Positions 7,263 to 31,284 of a DNA stretch of 33,904 bases are shown one piece after another. Position 1 is the first letter of the stretch; the number at the start of each line of letters is the position of its first letter. The notes under the pieces are model-generated. The model saw nothing but the letters and a program-made list of their open reading frames with translations, was not told the origin of the DNA and ran no database searches. This DNA is from a virus. The DNA lies in IMG/VR virus record IMGVR_UViG_3300025419_000117, positions 1 to 33,904 of that record; one strand, 5' to 3'. Made by a program: the position numbers and the translations under genes.

Positions 7263-8264
7263 TTATGTATTCGAAACTTTAATCGAATACGGCCATAAAC
7301 CGAACGCTGCGTTGAACCGCGCTTCGTTCGAGAATTGATACTCAGCTCGCGTGAATACCGATTCCGATTGCGGATCGTTTAGCATTACGAGGTGCGGTTC
7401 TTTGCGCATCTGCAATACAAACGGTCGGATCCGGTTGCCGACATAATCCAAATACCAATCGTCGGTATCCGTCAAGTAAGAATCTACTTGATAGGGGAAC
7501 GCACCTTTTAAAAGGTTGTCGGTCTGAAGAATTATATTCGCATTATACAACAGCTCGAACACGCCTTCAAGATCCGGTGGAATTGTGCAGAGGACTTGCA
7601 GCTTCCCGGGTGTGCGGATAAATGGCTTGCCTTGATCGGTCAAATATCTGCGAAGCGTTGTGCGCGCAGTCATCAAATCGGCAGTCACTTGAGCTAACGT
7701 ATGTCCGGTCCCGGTGAGGAGATTGCTCTGATTTCCGCTCTTGCCGGTATTATGATTCGTTGCATAGAAATCGTTGCCGTCGTAGCACAGCGTCGATGTT
7801 CCCGCAATGCGTAAATCGGTTATAAGTGTATCCTGCTTATATGTTCCCTCGTCTGCCATCTGGGGAATCAAGATGGCATATTTTCCGAGCCGGTCGTCTT
7901 CAATATCGTTGCGCCGCACGCCGATCGTAACTTCAAAATCTTTGTTCGGCACGCTGAATGTGAAACCGCGAATATCTTTTACAAATTTATCGCCTAACCA
8001 TTCGCGCATCATCGGTGTATCACCGAGCCATTGATAATCCTCGCTCGCACCTTCCGAATTCACCTTCATCGCAAACGCCGGCCACTTCGGCTGCAGCGCC
8101 TCCAATGCCTGATTAAACAGTGCATTGAAATTCTTTTGTAAGGCAACCAGCCCTGCAGCGCTCACGACCGTTCCGAAAACCATCACGCCCATGCGCCCGG
8201 AAGGACTCACCAGGCAGGCTACTAAAGCCAGAGCGATCAACGTCCATTTCATAAATCGTTTCAT
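7263..8264 (-). CDS. Major capsid protein, Mu gpT-like, with hydrophobic N-terminal extension
   Basis: 333 aa. The block from about residue 43 (QKNFNALFNQALE... then YQWLGDTPMMREWLGD... FSVPNKDFEVTIGVRRNDIEDDRLGKY) is the Mu gpT major head subunit pattern, and the C-terminus is full length. The first 42 residues are unusual: MKRFMKWTLIALALVAC gives a basic start, a hydrophobic core and a lipobox-like LVAC (14-17), then a second hydrophobic stretch (26-42). The start at 8264 has a strong AAGGAG site, whereas the internal ATGs (codons 25 and 28) have none, so the extension appears to be translated. The gene follows the decoration gene, as in Mu-like head operons. Confidence 0.85.
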   Translation of the reverse strand: MKRFMKWTLIALALVACLVSPSGRMGVMVFGTVVSAAGLVALQKNFNALFNQALEALQPKWPAFAMKVNSEGASEDYQWLGDTPMMREWLGDKFVKDIRGFTFSVPNKDFEVTIGVRRNDIEDDRLGKYAILIPQMADEGTYKQDTLITDLRIAGTSTLCYDGNDFYATNHNTGKSGNQSNLLTGTGHTLAQVTADLMTARTTLRRYLTDQGKPFIRTPGKLQVLCTIPPDLEGVFELLYNANIILQTDNLLKGAFPYQVDSYLTDTDDWYLDYVGNRIRPFVLQMRKEPHLVMLNDPQSESVFTRAEYQFSNEARFNAAFGLWPYSIKVSNT

Positions 8265-8321
8265 ACTTCTTTCTCCTTATAATTGTTGTTTTGTTTTATT
8301 TATAATCATGATAAAGCCTCT

Positions 8322-8351
8322 CCCTTCCCTCCCCTATAGGGGAGGGAAGGG
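8322..8351. repeat. CTCCCC hairpin repeat, copy 5 (perfect palindrome)
   Basis: Perfect inverted repeat with 15-bp arms (CCCTTCCCTCCCCTA and its complement) and no loop, followed by TGGGGT. It lies in the gap between the decoration and capsid genes. Confidence 0.8.
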
Positions 8352-8367
8352 TGGGGTTAAGATTCTT

Positions 8368-9309
8368 TTATACATCCGTTGTAATTAAAATCGTAACCGT
8401 ACAGCCGGTTACTGCATCTTGCGAGTTAGCCGTTACCCCAAAGTTTATATCGCTTCCAACTGCAACGGTATTCGCGCCTGTAGGTGTGAGCGCGAATATT
8501 GTTCCTGCAGCAGACCCGGCAAACGTTAACGTAAACGCTCCTGTCGTGATTGCGACCGTTGCAATCTTACCGGTGAGAGTTGGGCTGCCGGTTGTCAATG
8601 CAGCTTTCAGACACGCTTGCAATTTCGTGATATGCCCTGCCACAGGAGATGCGATGTGATACACTGCCGATCCATTGAGCAATGCAACATCGAGAGTCAA
8701 CGCGACAAGGTTTGCACCGAGATTACTGCGTGCCGTGAGAGCCGTTACATCGCTCAGATTATTTGCCGCAACGACATCACCATCGGATGAATGCGTGTTT
8801 TTGAATTCTACCCAGACACCGTTCCCATCGAGGTCGCGGACGTATCCGGCAATCGGACGCGTAGCGCCGCCGCCGCCCGTGGCTGTCTTTGCTACCGTAT
8901 GATCGTCATACACATAACATGTATCGCCGATTTCTGCAACCGTCACAAGATCAGATGCCCAATTGTCAAGATAGGCCATGCCTTCTTTTACACGAATTTT
9001 TTTAACGCCCTGGGCGATGCCGGTCGAATCGGATTGCTCATCGGCAATACCAGCGCCGATCAAAGTGCTCAATGCCGATCCTTCCACAGCGTAACCCGCT
9101 ACATTCAGACAGACGATCGCTCCCTTGTAAATTATATGATTAGCTTCCTGACCGTAAACGAAGGTATTTCCTTCACGCCGATCGGTAAGCCGGTCAGAAT
9201 TAAGGACCGTCATCGCAAACGGAAACACCGTTCCGCCGGTCACTTTCTTAATCAGCAATGCCCCGCCGAAGAGCACCAGCATCCCAAGTAAAACTGTTAA
9301 TTGTCCCAT
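8368..9309 (-). CDS. Putative head decoration protein with N-terminal membrane-like segment
   Basis: 313 aa from the ATG at 9309, chosen because AAAGGAG lies just upstream; a longer reading to 9345 lacks a site. Residues about 3-20 (LTVLLGMLVLFGGALLI) form a membrane-type helix followed by KK. Residues 45-150 (GQEANHIIYKGAIVCLNVAGYAVEGS... IGAGIADEQSDSTG... WVEFKNTH) follow the small beta-fold of capsid cement proteins (DUF2190-like). The C-terminal 150 residues are a second beta-rich domain (LTLDVALLNGSAVYHIASPVAGHITKL...). It sits between protease and major capsid, the usual decoration-protein position. The hydrophobic start is odd for a head protein. Confidence 0.55.
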   Translation of the reverse strand: MGQLTVLLGMLVLFGGALLIKKVTGGTVFPFAMTVLNSDRLTDRREGNTFVYGQEANHIIYKGAIVCLNVAGYAVEGSALSTLIGAGIADEQSDSTGIAQGVKKIRVKEGMAYLDNWASDLVTVAEIGDTCYVYDDHTVAKTATGGGGATRPIAGYVRDLDGNGVWVEFKNTHSSDGDVVAANNLSDVTALTARSNLGANLVALTLDVALLNGSAVYHIASPVAGHITKLQACLKAALTTGSPTLTGKIATVAITTGAFTLTFAGSAAGTIFALTPTGANTVAVGSDINFGVTANSQDAVTGCTVTILITTDV

Positions 9310-9377
9310 ACTAAACTCCTTTCGCCAAAGGCGTGCCTTCGGCATAAAATGTGATTGAAGATTGTTTATTTTCTCTT

Positions 9378-9431: not shown

Positions 9432-10031
9432 CTATTCTACTTTATTATACTTCACCAATTGATCTTCCGTCACGCCCAATTTCTTGCCTATAGCTCTATC
9501 TTCCACGGTGATATTTTTCGCTGCAATTGTGTCTCCGCCTTCAGGCAGTCTGCCGATCGGCAACACAACCGGAGCGGATGCGAGGTATGTTTCGAACGCT
9601 TTAATATCCTTTGCGGCAAAGGCATGCATGGAATCTCTTGTAGCAGGAGTGATCTTGCCGTCGGCAACACCTTTTGCAATAATTGTATCCACCTGCGTAT
9701 TGATTTCTTTGTTCTTCAGCGCATCGATCTCAGCGTGAAGCGTCTGCACGGTTGCAGCATTTTCTTTCGCCGCAAGATAAATCGCGGACGCTTCCTCGAC
9801 CGTGGCGCCGTCTTTTGCGCAGATCACTTTTACGAGACCTGCTTTGGCGGCGATCTCGGTTTTGGCGCCGGCAATATACTCCAGCACATCCTTTGCTGCG
9901 ATCTCAGTCGTAGCAGCCAGTGCTGTCTTCACATTCGTTGCGAACTCTGCAAACTTCGCCGCAACCGTTTGCTCGTCTGCGCTCTCGGCGATTCCGAGAA
10001 ACGCACACAGTTTTTTAATGACTCCGTCCAT
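9432..10031 (-). CDS. Nested scaffold protein, Mu gpZ-like
   Basis: In-frame internal ATG at 10031 (Met182 of the protease) preceded by GGAAAGGAC, a good ribosome site. The product is 199 aa, beginning MDGVIKKLCAFLGI, then coiled alanine-rich helices (EIAAKDVLEYIAGAKTEIAA, ENAATVQTLHAEIDAL). In Mu, the scaffold gpZ is produced from an internal start in gene I in the same way. Expression here is inferred from the ribosome site and family precedent. Confidence 0.55.
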   Translation of the reverse strand: MDGVIKKLCAFLGIAESADEQTVAAKFAEFATNVKTALAATTEIAAKDVLEYIAGAKTEIAAKAGLVKVICAKDGATVEEASAIYLAAKENAATVQTLHAEIDALKNKEINTQVDTIIAKGVADGKITPATRDSMHAFAAKDIKAFETYLASAPVVLPIGRLPEGGDTIAAKNITVEDRAIGKKLGVTEDQLVKYNKVE

Positions 10032-10574
10032 AAGGGTGTCCTTTCCAAAAATGGTTTGATAAAGTTGACTTGCTGCAATGGGTTGTAATTCATCGATCAA
10101 AGGTTCGTTCGTGAGCGCGGCGTTAAAGATCATACACGGGTAAACTTCGCCCGTTACCTTGTCGGTCGCATTGAGCGCAAAAACAGGAGATGTATACTTA
10201 TATTCGTGATCCTGTAAATATTTGGTTGCCTTATCGGTCCACTCGCGCATATGCGCGCGCAATACTTTTTTGCCGTCCCGTACTATAGAGGAGAGGTTGT
10301 TAATCCAACCGGCAGCCGGAGCCTCGCCGCCCTTCAGCGTCTGATGCTCATAGTCTACGACGAGATCCCGCATCGGTGCGCGCTGCTTGCGCTGCGCAAA
10401 TTGCTTCACCGCGGAATCGATATGACTTGCGGTAATCGTAAATGGCTGGTTGTTCCCATTGACGTCTTTTGCCTTTGCATACGTCGCGCCTTCAATGAGC
10501 AAATCGTATTCCATCGGCACACCGGCGCCCCCGAGATCTATTTCGCTTCCGAATATTACAATTGCTTTTTTCAT
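9432..10574 (-). CDS. Head maturation protease, Mu gpI-like
   Basis: 380 aa. Residues 1-165 carry the Mu-like I protease signature: MRDLVVDYEHQT (69-79), APAAGWI (85-91), REWTDKATKYL and YKYTSPVF (120s), then NAALTNEPLI. The protein cleaves scaffold and itself during prohead maturation. The C-terminal half (from about 182) is a lysine/alanine-rich helical scaffold that can also be made separately from an internal start (next entry). It is first in the head operon after the lysis genes. Confidence 0.85.
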   Translation of the reverse strand: MKKAIVIFGSEIDLGGAGVPMEYDLLIEGATYAKAKDVNGNNQPFTITASHIDSAVKQFAQRKQRAPMRDLVVDYEHQTLKGGEAPAAGWINNLSSIVRDGKKVLRAHMREWTDKATKYLQDHEYKYTSPVFALNATDKVTGEVYPCMIFNAALTNEPLIDELQPIAASQLYQTIFGKDTLMDGVIKKLCAFLGIAESADEQTVAAKFAEFATNVKTALAATTEIAAKDVLEYIAGAKTEIAAKAGLVKVICAKDGATVEEASAIYLAAKENAATVQTLHAEIDALKNKEINTQVDTIIAKGVADGKITPATRDSMHAFAAKDIKAFETYLASAPVVLPIGRLPEGGDTIAAKNITVEDRAIGKKLGVTEDQLVKYNKVE

Positions 10575-11432: not shown

Positions 11433-12095
11433 TCAGTTTAATTTATACTTTCGCATGAGTATAATAAGTTTCAGTGCATAGTCCAGATCGGCGGCGTAAT
11501 GTTTAGCAAGTTCACGTGCGAATTTCTCTGGAGAATTCCCCGGCTTGAAGGCGCTGCGATAAAGAGGCGAACCGGATATATAACGACCGTACATTTCGAA
11601 CGATTCCTCTATATTTTTGAATCTCGCAAACCGGACCATCTCCTGTATCGCAATTCCGTTTTGATACCGTGTGTCCCTCCGAATGACATAAGCAGGATAT
11701 GGCATGTATCTTCTCACCGCTGCCAAAGTTAAGCCTTGGTAATTCTGTGCTCCTAAATGACAAAGTCCCCATTTGCTTTCTAATATCCATTGAGCTATCA
11801 CCACGCCTTTCGGTATTGCATAAACAGTTTCGATGTGAGCCGCGAGAGCATAGACGGTGTCCGGAATCTTCCCCAGCTGAAATATTCCGGATTTGTTTCG
11901 ATCTCCGAAATACGCTGCCAGAACTGAGTCAGGTTCCGGATTCGTCCAACTCGTGATGGCGAAATCCAGAATTTCTTTTGAATCATCTTTGCCAATTTGT
12001 TCAGGCGGATACTTATATAAGAAGAGAAGGACAATGCCGCCGAGCGCAAAGCCAATGATCGTACCGGCTCCAAGCCATTTAAATTTTGATTGCAT
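11433..12095 (-). CDS. Endolysin, glucosaminidase (FlgJ/LytD-type) with N-terminal signal anchor
   Basis: 220 aa. Residues 8-27 (LGAGTIIGFALGGIVLLFLY) form a membrane anchor, so export is probably holin-independent as in SAR-type endolysins. The catalytic domain has AQWILESKWG (101-110) with the likely catalytic Glu106, followed by HLGAQNYQGL, the E-S-x-W-G...L-G-x-x-N-x-x-G pattern of N-acetylglucosaminidases that cut peptidoglycan. The C-terminus (FARELAKHYAADLDYALKLI) is the usual family tail. Its 5' third overlaps the long C-terminal reading of the HNH-AP2 gene. Confidence 0.75.
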   Translation of the reverse strand: MQSKFKWLGAGTIIGFALGGIVLLFLYKYPPEQIGKDDSKEILDFAITSWTNPEPDSVLAAYFGDRNKSGIFQLGKIPDTVYALAAHIETVYAIPKGVVIAQWILESKWGLCHLGAQNYQGLTLAAVRRYMPYPAYVIRRDTRYQNGIAIQEMVRFARFKNIEESFEMYGRYISGSPLYRSAFKPGNSPEKFARELAKHYAADLDYALKLIILMRKYKLN

Positions 12096-12604
12096 GAGAT
12101 CTCCGGTTGGATTAATGGTTCGGGGAAGTTGAGACGGGCGAAGACACCAGCAAACTTTTTCGCTTCTTCATCATATTTATGTGCAGCGAGAATGGCCGTA
12201 GGATAATCTCCTATCCTGCAAAGTTTCCCATTCTTCATAAGAGCCGCTCGATACTTCTTATTAATTTTATTATAACTCACTCCCTTAAACCCAGAAGTAT
12301 TGGTCGACATTATACCTCGATTAAATTGATCTTCAGATGCAGACGCAATTCGCATATTCGATCTTTGACAATTCAATCCATTCCCGTCTACAAAATCCAC
12401 ATGCATGTTCAATGGAGGATTCATTAAAATGATATGCAGATAAATTATTTTTTGTTTCCCATTTTTTCTTTCCCACGTGACTGCATACCATGGTGAGCGG
12501 GGAAAGATTCCCTTGGTGGCGCAAAATTTTCTTTGTGAGAGAGATTCGTAATCTTCATCGTCAACCAGAGCAACCTTTCCCCGCGACAATTCTATCTCTT
12601 TCAA
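11798..12604 (-). CDS. HNH-AP2 homing endonuclease, catalytically degenerate, overlapping endolysin
   Basis: 268 aa, TTG start at 12604 with GGAGG seven bases upstream. Residues 55-90 carry an HNH_3-type fold: H57 in YLHIIL, NPPLNMHVD, then FVDGNGLN...RSNMR. The family has His where this protein has Phe71, and other core positions are altered (Cys79), so cleavage is probably lost. Residues 100-158 form an AP2 DNA-binding domain (NTSGFKGVSYNKINKKYRAAL...IGDYPTAILAAHKYDEEAKKFAG). Family members normally end about here; this reading continues another 100 residues through the endolysin gene in another frame, implying a lost stop or a frameshift. Probably a decaying homing endonuclease. Confidence 0.6.
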   Translation of the reverse strand: MKEIELSRGKVALVDDEDYESLSQRKFCATKGIFPRSPWYAVTWERKNGKQKIIYLHIILMNPPLNMHVDFVDGNGLNCQRSNMRIASASEDQFNRGIMSTNTSGFKGVSYNKINKKYRAALMKNGKLCRIGDYPTAILAAHKYDEEAKKFAGVFARLNFPEPLIQPEISCNQNLNGLEPVRSLALRSAALSFSSYISIRLNKLAKMIQKKFWISPSRVGRIRNLTQFWQRISEIETNPEYFSWGRFRTPSMLSRLTSKLFMQYRKAW

Positions 12605-30027: not shown

Positions 30028-31284
30028 ATGGTAGATGTTTTTTTATATCAGGGTTCGATAAATCCATACGATGTTACTCTCAGCGATCCAACCGTTGTAC
30101 GCGGTGGCGTTGGCGTTGAAATATTTGCGAATCTTACAAAAACTCTCGATGCAATATCATGTTCATCTTCCGTTGCAATTTCCGATAATGCCGCTCTCAA
30201 TAAATCCTTGGATGCTTGCGTAGGTTCGTCTTCAGTAACCATTGCAATCGCAATCGACCTAAGCAAGACTCTCGATACGCTGGTATGCTCGTCTGCTGTT
30301 GTAATCTCAGATAACGCGGCTCTCGATAAATCCCTGGGCGCATGCACAGGTTCGTCTTCGGTAACCATTGCAATCGCAATTGCTCTGAGCAAAACTCTCG
30401 ATGCGCTGGTATGCTCTTCTGCTGTTGTAATTCCCGAGAGTGCCGCTCTCAATAAACCCTTGGATGCTTGCACAGATTCATCTTCGGTAGCCGTTGCAAT
30501 CGCAACTGCTCTGAGTAAAACTCTCGATGCGCTGGTATGCTCTTCTGCTGTTGTAATTCCCGAGAGTGCCGCTCTCAATAAACCCTTGGATGCTTGCACA
30601 GATTCATCTTCGGTAGCCGTTGCAATCGCAACTACTCTGAGCAAAACTCTCGACGCGCTGGTATGCTCTTCTGTTGTTGTAATTCCCGAGAGTGCCGCTC
30701 TCAATAAACCCTTGGATGCTTGCACAGATTCGTCATCGGTAACCGTTGCAATCGCAACTACTCTGAGCAAAACTCTCGATGCATTAGTATGCTCTTCTGC
30801 TGTTGTAATTCCCGATAATATCTCTCTCGATAAATCCTTAGATACTTGCACAGGTTCGTCTTCAGTGGTTCTTGGAATTGTCGCGGCATTTAATAAAAGC
30901 TTATCAGATATTTCCCTCTCCTCCGATGTAGCAATAAGCACCGAGCACCTCCTTAATTTAAACTCGGAGTTGGGCTCAATCGGTTTATCTTCGCACATTA
31001 CCGTAGGCACATCCGGAGGAATAAATGAAACACTCGAAAGCATTGCGTTCCTTGCCGCAGTGATTATTCAAATACAAGCTTCTATTTCAAAAGATATTGA
31101 CACTGCCGTTTTAAATTCTTCTATCAAGACGATCTTTGGACCGAGTATCAATGCCGCGACGAGAATGTTCGAATCTTTTCCTGGTCGGAAGTTCGAATTT
31201 ACCACCGATCAAAGGATAAATGAAAACGCTCCCTTACGGAAATTTATTTTCGATTTTAACGGAATGCGCGATGAAAATATTTAA
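30028..31284 (+). CDS. Tandem 21-residue-repeat protein (putative fibre/adhesin)
   Basis: 418 aa. After a 35-residue head, about 16 tandem 21-residue repeats (pattern L-x-K-x-L-D-A-x-x-x-S-S-x-V-x-I-x-x-x-x-x) run to about residue 375; two 21-mers alternate to make a 42-residue super-repeat (126 bp). The last 45 residues are non-repetitive and end in FDFNGMRDENI. A solenoid-like beta shaft is inferred from the alternation of small polar and hydrophobic residues. It lies among virion genes before the portal, an unusual place for a fibre. Confidence 0.6.
   Translation: MVDVFLYQGSINPYDVTLSDPTVVRGGVGVEIFANLTKTLDAISCSSSVAISDNAALNKSLDACVGSSSVTIAIAIDLSKTLDTLVCSSAVVISDNAALDKSLGACTGSSSVTIAIAIALSKTLDALVCSSAVVIPESAALNKPLDACTDSSSVAVAIATALSKTLDALVCSSAVVIPESAALNKPLDACTDSSSVAVAIATTLSKTLDALVCSSVVVIPESAALNKPLDACTDSSSVTVAIATTLSKTLDALVCSSAVVIPDNISLDKSLDTCTGSSSVVLGIVAAFNKSLSDISLSSDVAISTEHLLNLNSELGSIGLSSHITVGTSGGINETLESIAFLAAVIIQIQASISKDIDTAVLNSSIKTIFGPSINAATRMFESFPGRKFEFTTDQRINENAPLRKFIFDFNGMRDENI
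30133..30888 (+). repeat. Tandem array of 63-bp units (126-bp super-repeat)
   Basis: Twelve well-conserved 63-bp coding units; neighbouring 126-bp pairs (for example those starting at 30385 and 30511) are nearly identical, which implies recent slippage or unequal recombination. Four further degenerate units follow to about 31150. Confidence 0.8.

Follow-up and report, generated by a model that had tools for sequence, protein, structure and literature searches.

The major capsid protein of an uncultured Mu-like phage carries, in front of the canonical start of its family (gpT), an N-terminal extension that is probably a genuine Sec-type signal sequence. Thirty-four other distinct gpT proteins are likewise extended, and the putative signals suggest that some tailed phages (this one and about three dozen relatives) deliberately route their head protein to the cell membrane. 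Capsid proteins with the HK97 fold are considered cytoplasmic, and our search of the literature on signal peptides of gpT or of tailed-phage capsids found no prior description. The DNA analysed (the window) is the whole of a 33,904-base IMG/VR virus record, IMGVR_UViG_3300025419_000117. The features under discussion are collected in Table 1.

Head genes of the window

The capsid gene is identified as a Mu-like gpT gene by both profile match and gene order. The genes for the gpI protease, the gpD-like decoration protein and gpT follow one another in the usual Mu-like order on the minus strand, and the capsid sequence matches the solved JBD30-type gpT (E=8.5e-34). Mu gpT, JBD30 gp38 and D3112 orf35 belong to the same family (PF10124, PHROG_371) and have a similar gene order (gpI, gpD-like, gpT, gp36), but they begin at the canonical start, and a signal extension of about 32-55 residues is absent from the family models. 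In the window, the alignment with PHROG_371 (major head protein) begins with capsid residue 34 at profile position 4 and that with the Pfam gpT model with residue 41 at profile position 3, so that approximately 32 residues lie outside the known family. The canonical gpT start corresponds to residues 32-34 in the alignment, and neither to Met25 nor to Met28; the window protein does not begin with its M-I-I-N type of sequence. Since this start is a variable and non-defining feature of the family, the extension does not exclude membership. The AlphaFold model of the capsid protein is poor (pLDDT 44.6) and the N-terminus cannot be placed in it.

Strong ribosome sites had been taken in the first-pass annotation to fix the starts of both head genes, and the calculated energies agree. 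The capsid ATG at 8264 (minus strand) has AAGGAG 8-9 nt upstream, with a duplex energy of -9.3 kcal/mol compared with -2.2 at Met25 and -3.4 at Met28. The decoration protein ATG at 9309 (minus strand) has AAAGGAG 6 nt upstream (-8.2 kcal/mol), and no ribosome site is evident before an alternative ATG at 9345 in the ORF list. An internal start in the capsid gene is rejected on the ribosome-site energies together with the loss of the canonical Met.

Table 1. Coordinates of head-gene features in the window and of signal-peptide genes in other loci
Feature	Coordinates	Strand	Basis
Major capsid protein, Mu gpT family, 333 aa	7263..8264	-	PF10124 E=6.8e-59, PHROG_371 E=1.5e-61
Capsid N-terminal extension, residues 1-32, MKRFMKWTLIALALVACLVSPSGRMGVMVFGT	8169..8264	-	Outside PHROG_371; recurs in L003, L004, L007 and others
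Hydrophobic core of the capsid signal-like segment, residues 9-19	8208..8240	-	h-region scan, mean Kyte-Doolittle (KD) 3.3; preceded by n-region of charge +3
Second hydrophobic segment, capsid residues 26-42, into the canonical gpT N-terminus	8139..8189	-	KD 17-residue mean 2.12 at residue 26
Capsid gene ribosome binding site, AAGGAG	8273..8278	-	Anti-SD duplex energy -9.3 kcal/mol
gpD-like head decoration protein, PHROG_1731 family, D3112 orf34 type	8368..9309	-	PHROG_1731 E=1.2e-35 from residue 33
Decoration protein N-terminal transmembrane-like helix, residues 4-20, then KK	9250..9300	-	KD 2.59; predicted N-out, C-in
Decoration gene ribosome binding site, AAAGGAG	9316..9322	-	Anti-SD energy -8.2 kcal/mol
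gpI head maturation protease (Mu-like_Pro), candidate processing enzyme	9432..10574	-	PF10123 E=2.2e-53, PHROG_328 E=1.4e-52
Signal-peptide gene, about 135 aa	L178:3975-4388
Signal-peptide gene, about 135 aa	L188:1982-2389
Signal-peptide gene, about 135 aa	L168:2504-2938
Signal-peptide gene, about 135 aa	L099:5271-5675
Signal-peptide gene, about 135 aa	L167:4269-4670

The hydrophobic, signal-like segments noted at the first pass on both the capsid and the decoration protein are real. Both are kept in two IMG/VR contigs of about 60% identity (L003 and L004), with diverged sequences and their own strong ribosome sites, which argues that those of the window are not due to chance. In the window capsid, a positive n-region and an uncharged hydrophobic h-region are both present, and the candidate signal peptidase I-type site (between VAC and LVS, or weaker) is the weakest of the set. 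The capsid extensions of L003 (MKRILLAVVLIAIVALPAFASAGQNNSGTVGIGILLGIGLLAGGVIAS) and L004 (MKKRIFSIAMLAILLTLPVFASTTSGTSAG) are clearer Sec signal peptides than that of the window, and the second hydrophobic segment is also stronger in L003. The earlier hint of a lipobox, LVAC, did not hold up. Only the window has this motif: its Cys is replaced by Ile or Phe in L003, L004 and L007, so that processing as a bacterial lipoprotein is unlikely.

In the decoration protein, the alignment with PHROG_1731 (virion structural protein) begins with residue 33 at profile position 1, leaving 32 extra residues. The model of the protein has a helix at residues 2-24 (pLDDT about 70 over residues 1-20), which is conserved in six phages of the window group and followed by a positive flank (KK[VI]TG type) in five of them. 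With the complete model (pLDDT 51.9), Foldseek gave weak matches to YSD1, SHP and lambda gpD (E 0.014-0.3); the best YSD1 and gpD matches of the core have probabilities of 0.98-0.99, although the resemblance is weak. The likeness to lambda gpD, YSD1 gp16 and the SHP decoration protein concerns the fold of the core. The window protein differs from them at both ends: the N-terminus is 32 residues longer and includes a membrane-type helix, and the C-terminus has an additional region of about 140 residues.

Membrane signals recur on more than one head-region gene. In five phages (L034, L136, L203, L217 and L272) the gpT start is standard, yet the gpD-like decoration protein, encoded upstream of gpT, has a signal peptide or membrane helix. 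A short distance downstream of gpT, five loci (L099, L167, L168, L178 and L188) have a gene of about 135 aa whose product carries a signal peptide. These products have Cys residues in common and no PHROG match, and may represent an additional protein of the head surface.

The two N-terminal hydrophobic segments might instead pack together, or on neighbouring subunits, at the capsid surface and stabilise the mature head without involving a membrane. Such packing would suit the window clade, where the capsid and decoration extensions occur together, and the N-arm hook of JBD30 gpT does reach above the spine helix of its neighbour where capsomers meet (PMC11445458). We nevertheless consider it improbable, given that 29 of the 35 extended gpT proteins are without a decoration helix and that five phages have the decoration segment alone. 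It would also leave unexplained the positive n-region and the AxA pattern described below.

Two observations were made elsewhere in the window. At 11798-12604 and 11433-12095 (both minus strand), an ORF that resembles, by eye, an HNH/AP2-type homing endonuclease and an endolysin gene (PHROG endolysin) overlap out of frame. The right-hand gene cluster includes a 418 aa protein of approximately 40-residue repeats (LSKTLDALVCSSAVVIPESAALNKPLDACTDSSSV...) at 30028-31284 (plus strand).

Occurrence and anatomy of extended gpT proteins

Genes for gpT were gathered from IMG/VR, GTDB genomes and annotated phages, using a decoration-protein query first and a capsid alignment second. In the scan of genome contigs, the first alignment gave no match and a broader alignment gave gpT matches. 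The start offsets are bimodal, being either canonical (0-13 residues) or extended by about 31-55 residues. Of the 218 distinct ORFs, 192 have offsets of 0-13 residues, and for 25 the start was called 31-55 residues upstream. Of these 25, 23 are clearly signal-like; L177 joins them when its upstream start is used, and L022 was called spuriously. In the standard gpT ORFs (277, including some near-duplicates), in-frame upstream signal-like sequence was found only in L029, which is a true extension missed by the start-caller. The extension turns up repeatedly in different gpT lineages, and its Sec-like character is clearer in relatives than in the window itself. Relatives start canonically or carry a full signal peptide; none supports the starts at Met25 or Met28 that the first-pass annotation had named as the alternative.

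Most gpT phages, Mu included, are without a signal extension. None of the 14 annotated phage records (Mu and 13 others) has an in-frame signal extension on gpT, and the Mu record notes that its gpT start was confirmed by amino acid sequencing. A sig_peptide annotated on the gpT of Salinibacter phage M31CR41-2 (L072) was rejected as an annotation artefact because the feature covers the whole CDS and the N-terminus is hydrophilic. The Tistlia exoproteome lists a gpT; there, the predicted Sec signal is on a Mu I-like protein, not on gpT (PMC4545795).

Sampling with the gpT Pfam model gave extensions in 10 of 28 scored loci of the Rhodocyclus family (including two known loci and one copy of a known locus), in 5 of 29 in the phylum of Rhodocyclus (Pseudomonadota, with the centre excluded) and in none of 29 in the phylum of a Geobacteraceae MAG (with the known case excluded), rates that are only rough since the best-scoring loci of each search were read. 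Hosts in culture with an extended gpT include Rhodocyclus tenuis and Zoogloea. The prophage of R. tenuis 2761 has a Mu-type portal, terminase, Mor regulator, gpI, a gpD-like protein, an extended gpT and gp36. Only one gpT is present in the window record and, likewise, a single extended gpT in each of three host genomes.

A separate observation concerns the order of segments within gpT. In one subfamily, profile positions 1-150, 221-287 and 152-217 follow one another along the gene and in the other they are collinear, a swap within the capsid protein. The difference was noted across the window gene (7263-8264) and G061, G081, G093, G230 and G293.

All 35 extended gpT proteins (window included) have an n-region with a charge of +1 to +3, then an uncharged hydrophobic core of 9-17 residues. 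An AxA-type site is present in most (frequently P-A-x-A). A short spacer then connects to a hydrophobic boundary, G-[LIM]-[IV]-[IV]-N, at the canonical start; the second residue ahead of the canonical core is Gly in 31 of the 35. A rule-based signal-peptide test was passed by 23 of 23 extended gpT proteins compared with 1 of 138 other genes with strong ribosome sites from the same loci, by 32 of 1,325 other genes in a wider locus set and by 9.8% of shuffles; this rule is our own approximation and was written after some of the sequences had been seen.

These features could be an artefact of start calling if translation really began at the canonical position or close to it, with the codons before it untranslated or decayed. 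The canonical Met is indeed kept in 9 of the 35, and the window contains internal ATGs. However, the remaining 26 have another residue, which excludes initiation exactly at the canonical position in most members, and the ribosome site is strong at the upstream ATG in nearly all 35 and weak inside. As hydrophobicity is, in addition, conserved in the coding frame only (see below), an artefact of this kind is extremely improbable.

Several members have textbook cleavable signals (for example, ...AEPAFA before GES in L324 and ...GDPAYA before GEA in L319), as might be expected if Sec exported gpT, or part of it, to the periplasm or cell surface for a role besides the shell (for example, as a decoy or surface layer). 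We give this little credence. In every record or genome checked, the one gpT present also has to form the head, and an unexported isoform starting at the canonical position is unlikely because the Met is absent there in most members.

Evolution of the extension

In the gpT pairs compared, the extension is 16-66% identical and the core 61-89%. The pN/pS of the extension is mostly 0.5-1.0 and that of the core much lower, with synonymous sites near saturation. Hydrophobicity of the extension is kept in coding frame 0 only (KD 2.75 versus 0.75 and 0.42). Such rapid divergence with hydrophobicity retained in-frame is as expected for a signal peptide. On a tree of 288 gpT cores, the presence of the extension requires approximately 17 state changes, at least 6 of them forced by well-supported branches, compared with 34.5 for shuffled labels. 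The extension has therefore been gained or lost repeatedly, gains and losses being counted together.

The extension might also be a removable hydrophobic propeptide of a cytoplasmic prohead (a delta domain or scaffold-binding segment), cut by gpI just before the canonical start, with only an incidental likeness to Sec signals. The gpI protease gene lies upstream of gpT, and a cut at the boundary with the conserved Gly (31 of 35) would leave a near-canonical N-terminus. The HK97 delta domain is likewise N-terminal and the gpT extension, too, is possibly removed by the phage protease, but the latter is short, hydrophobic and Sec-like and not charged and scaffold-like. Known delta domains are longer and charged, and the gpT extension, short (about 32-55 aa) and hydrophobic, is a poorer match to a classical delta domain. 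In the JBD30 procapsid, the N-arm of gpT is a helix that is rearranged on maturation (PMC11445458), which would suit a propeptide; a positive n-region and an AxA site well upstream of the boundary are, however, typical of Sec and unneeded for a scaffold peptide. We regard a cytoplasmic propeptide as unlikely.

A proposed membrane route for head assembly

The reading that we prefer is that the Sec-type signal would bring the gpT capsid precursor, while it is being made or afterwards, to the inner membrane of the host. In the window clade, the decoration protein would also be targeted to the membrane, through its N-terminal helix. Most likely, the precursor would remain at the cytoplasmic face of the membrane, anchored by its signal or folded into a hairpin together with the second hydrophobic segment; in phages outside the window clade, that segment often lacks the length of a clear membrane span. 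Heads would assemble at the membrane and be freed once the host signal peptidase or phage gpI cuts the segment off. Assembly at the cytoplasmic face is favoured because the shell has to close around DNA inside the cytoplasm and must be built by the one gpT available. Against the model, the protein behind a cleavable signal is normally exported, and export would preclude a cytoplasmic head unless translocation were halted. From the sequences, we would give the model as a whole (a Sec-type signal, inner-membrane targeting, head assembly there and then removal) a probability of about 0.5. Membrane targeting of the capsid precursor is the part that we infer strongly; the topology, the role in assembly and the identity of the protease are hypothetical.

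M13 procoat is a virion coat precursor with a Sec-type signal that is inserted in the inner membrane before assembly and, to our knowledge, a procoat-like capsid route is known only from filamentous phages. Procoat and extended gpT have no homology, and filamentous virions are extruded through the membrane whereas a gpT head has to take up its DNA in the cytoplasm. The proheads of T4 and SPN3US are assembled on the inner membrane and released after prohead proteolysis, and the reported membrane link of T4 is its portal gp20 with host YidC (PMC9026906). They provide a precedent for assembly on the membrane, but the T4 link is not a capsid-protein signal and these systems are not homologous to extended gpT. 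A broader proposal, which we hold to be doubtful, is that in many Mu-like phages (a large minority) the capsid precursor would be a procoat-like integral inner-membrane protein. HK97-fold heads would then be built from membrane-inserted subunits, with membrane contact possibly kept via the decoration protein.

The R. tenuis 2761 lysogen makes the question addressable in a cultured bacterium, if the prophage is inducible. A putative Sec-type signal on the sole capsid protein, repeatedly acquired or lost and found in 5 of the 29 scored Pseudomonadota loci, implies selection for membrane routing of head assembly. If true, this would provide a sequence handle on membrane-attached proheads such as those of T4 and SPN3US, and would tie the assembly of tailed-phage heads to the Sec or YidC machinery of the host.
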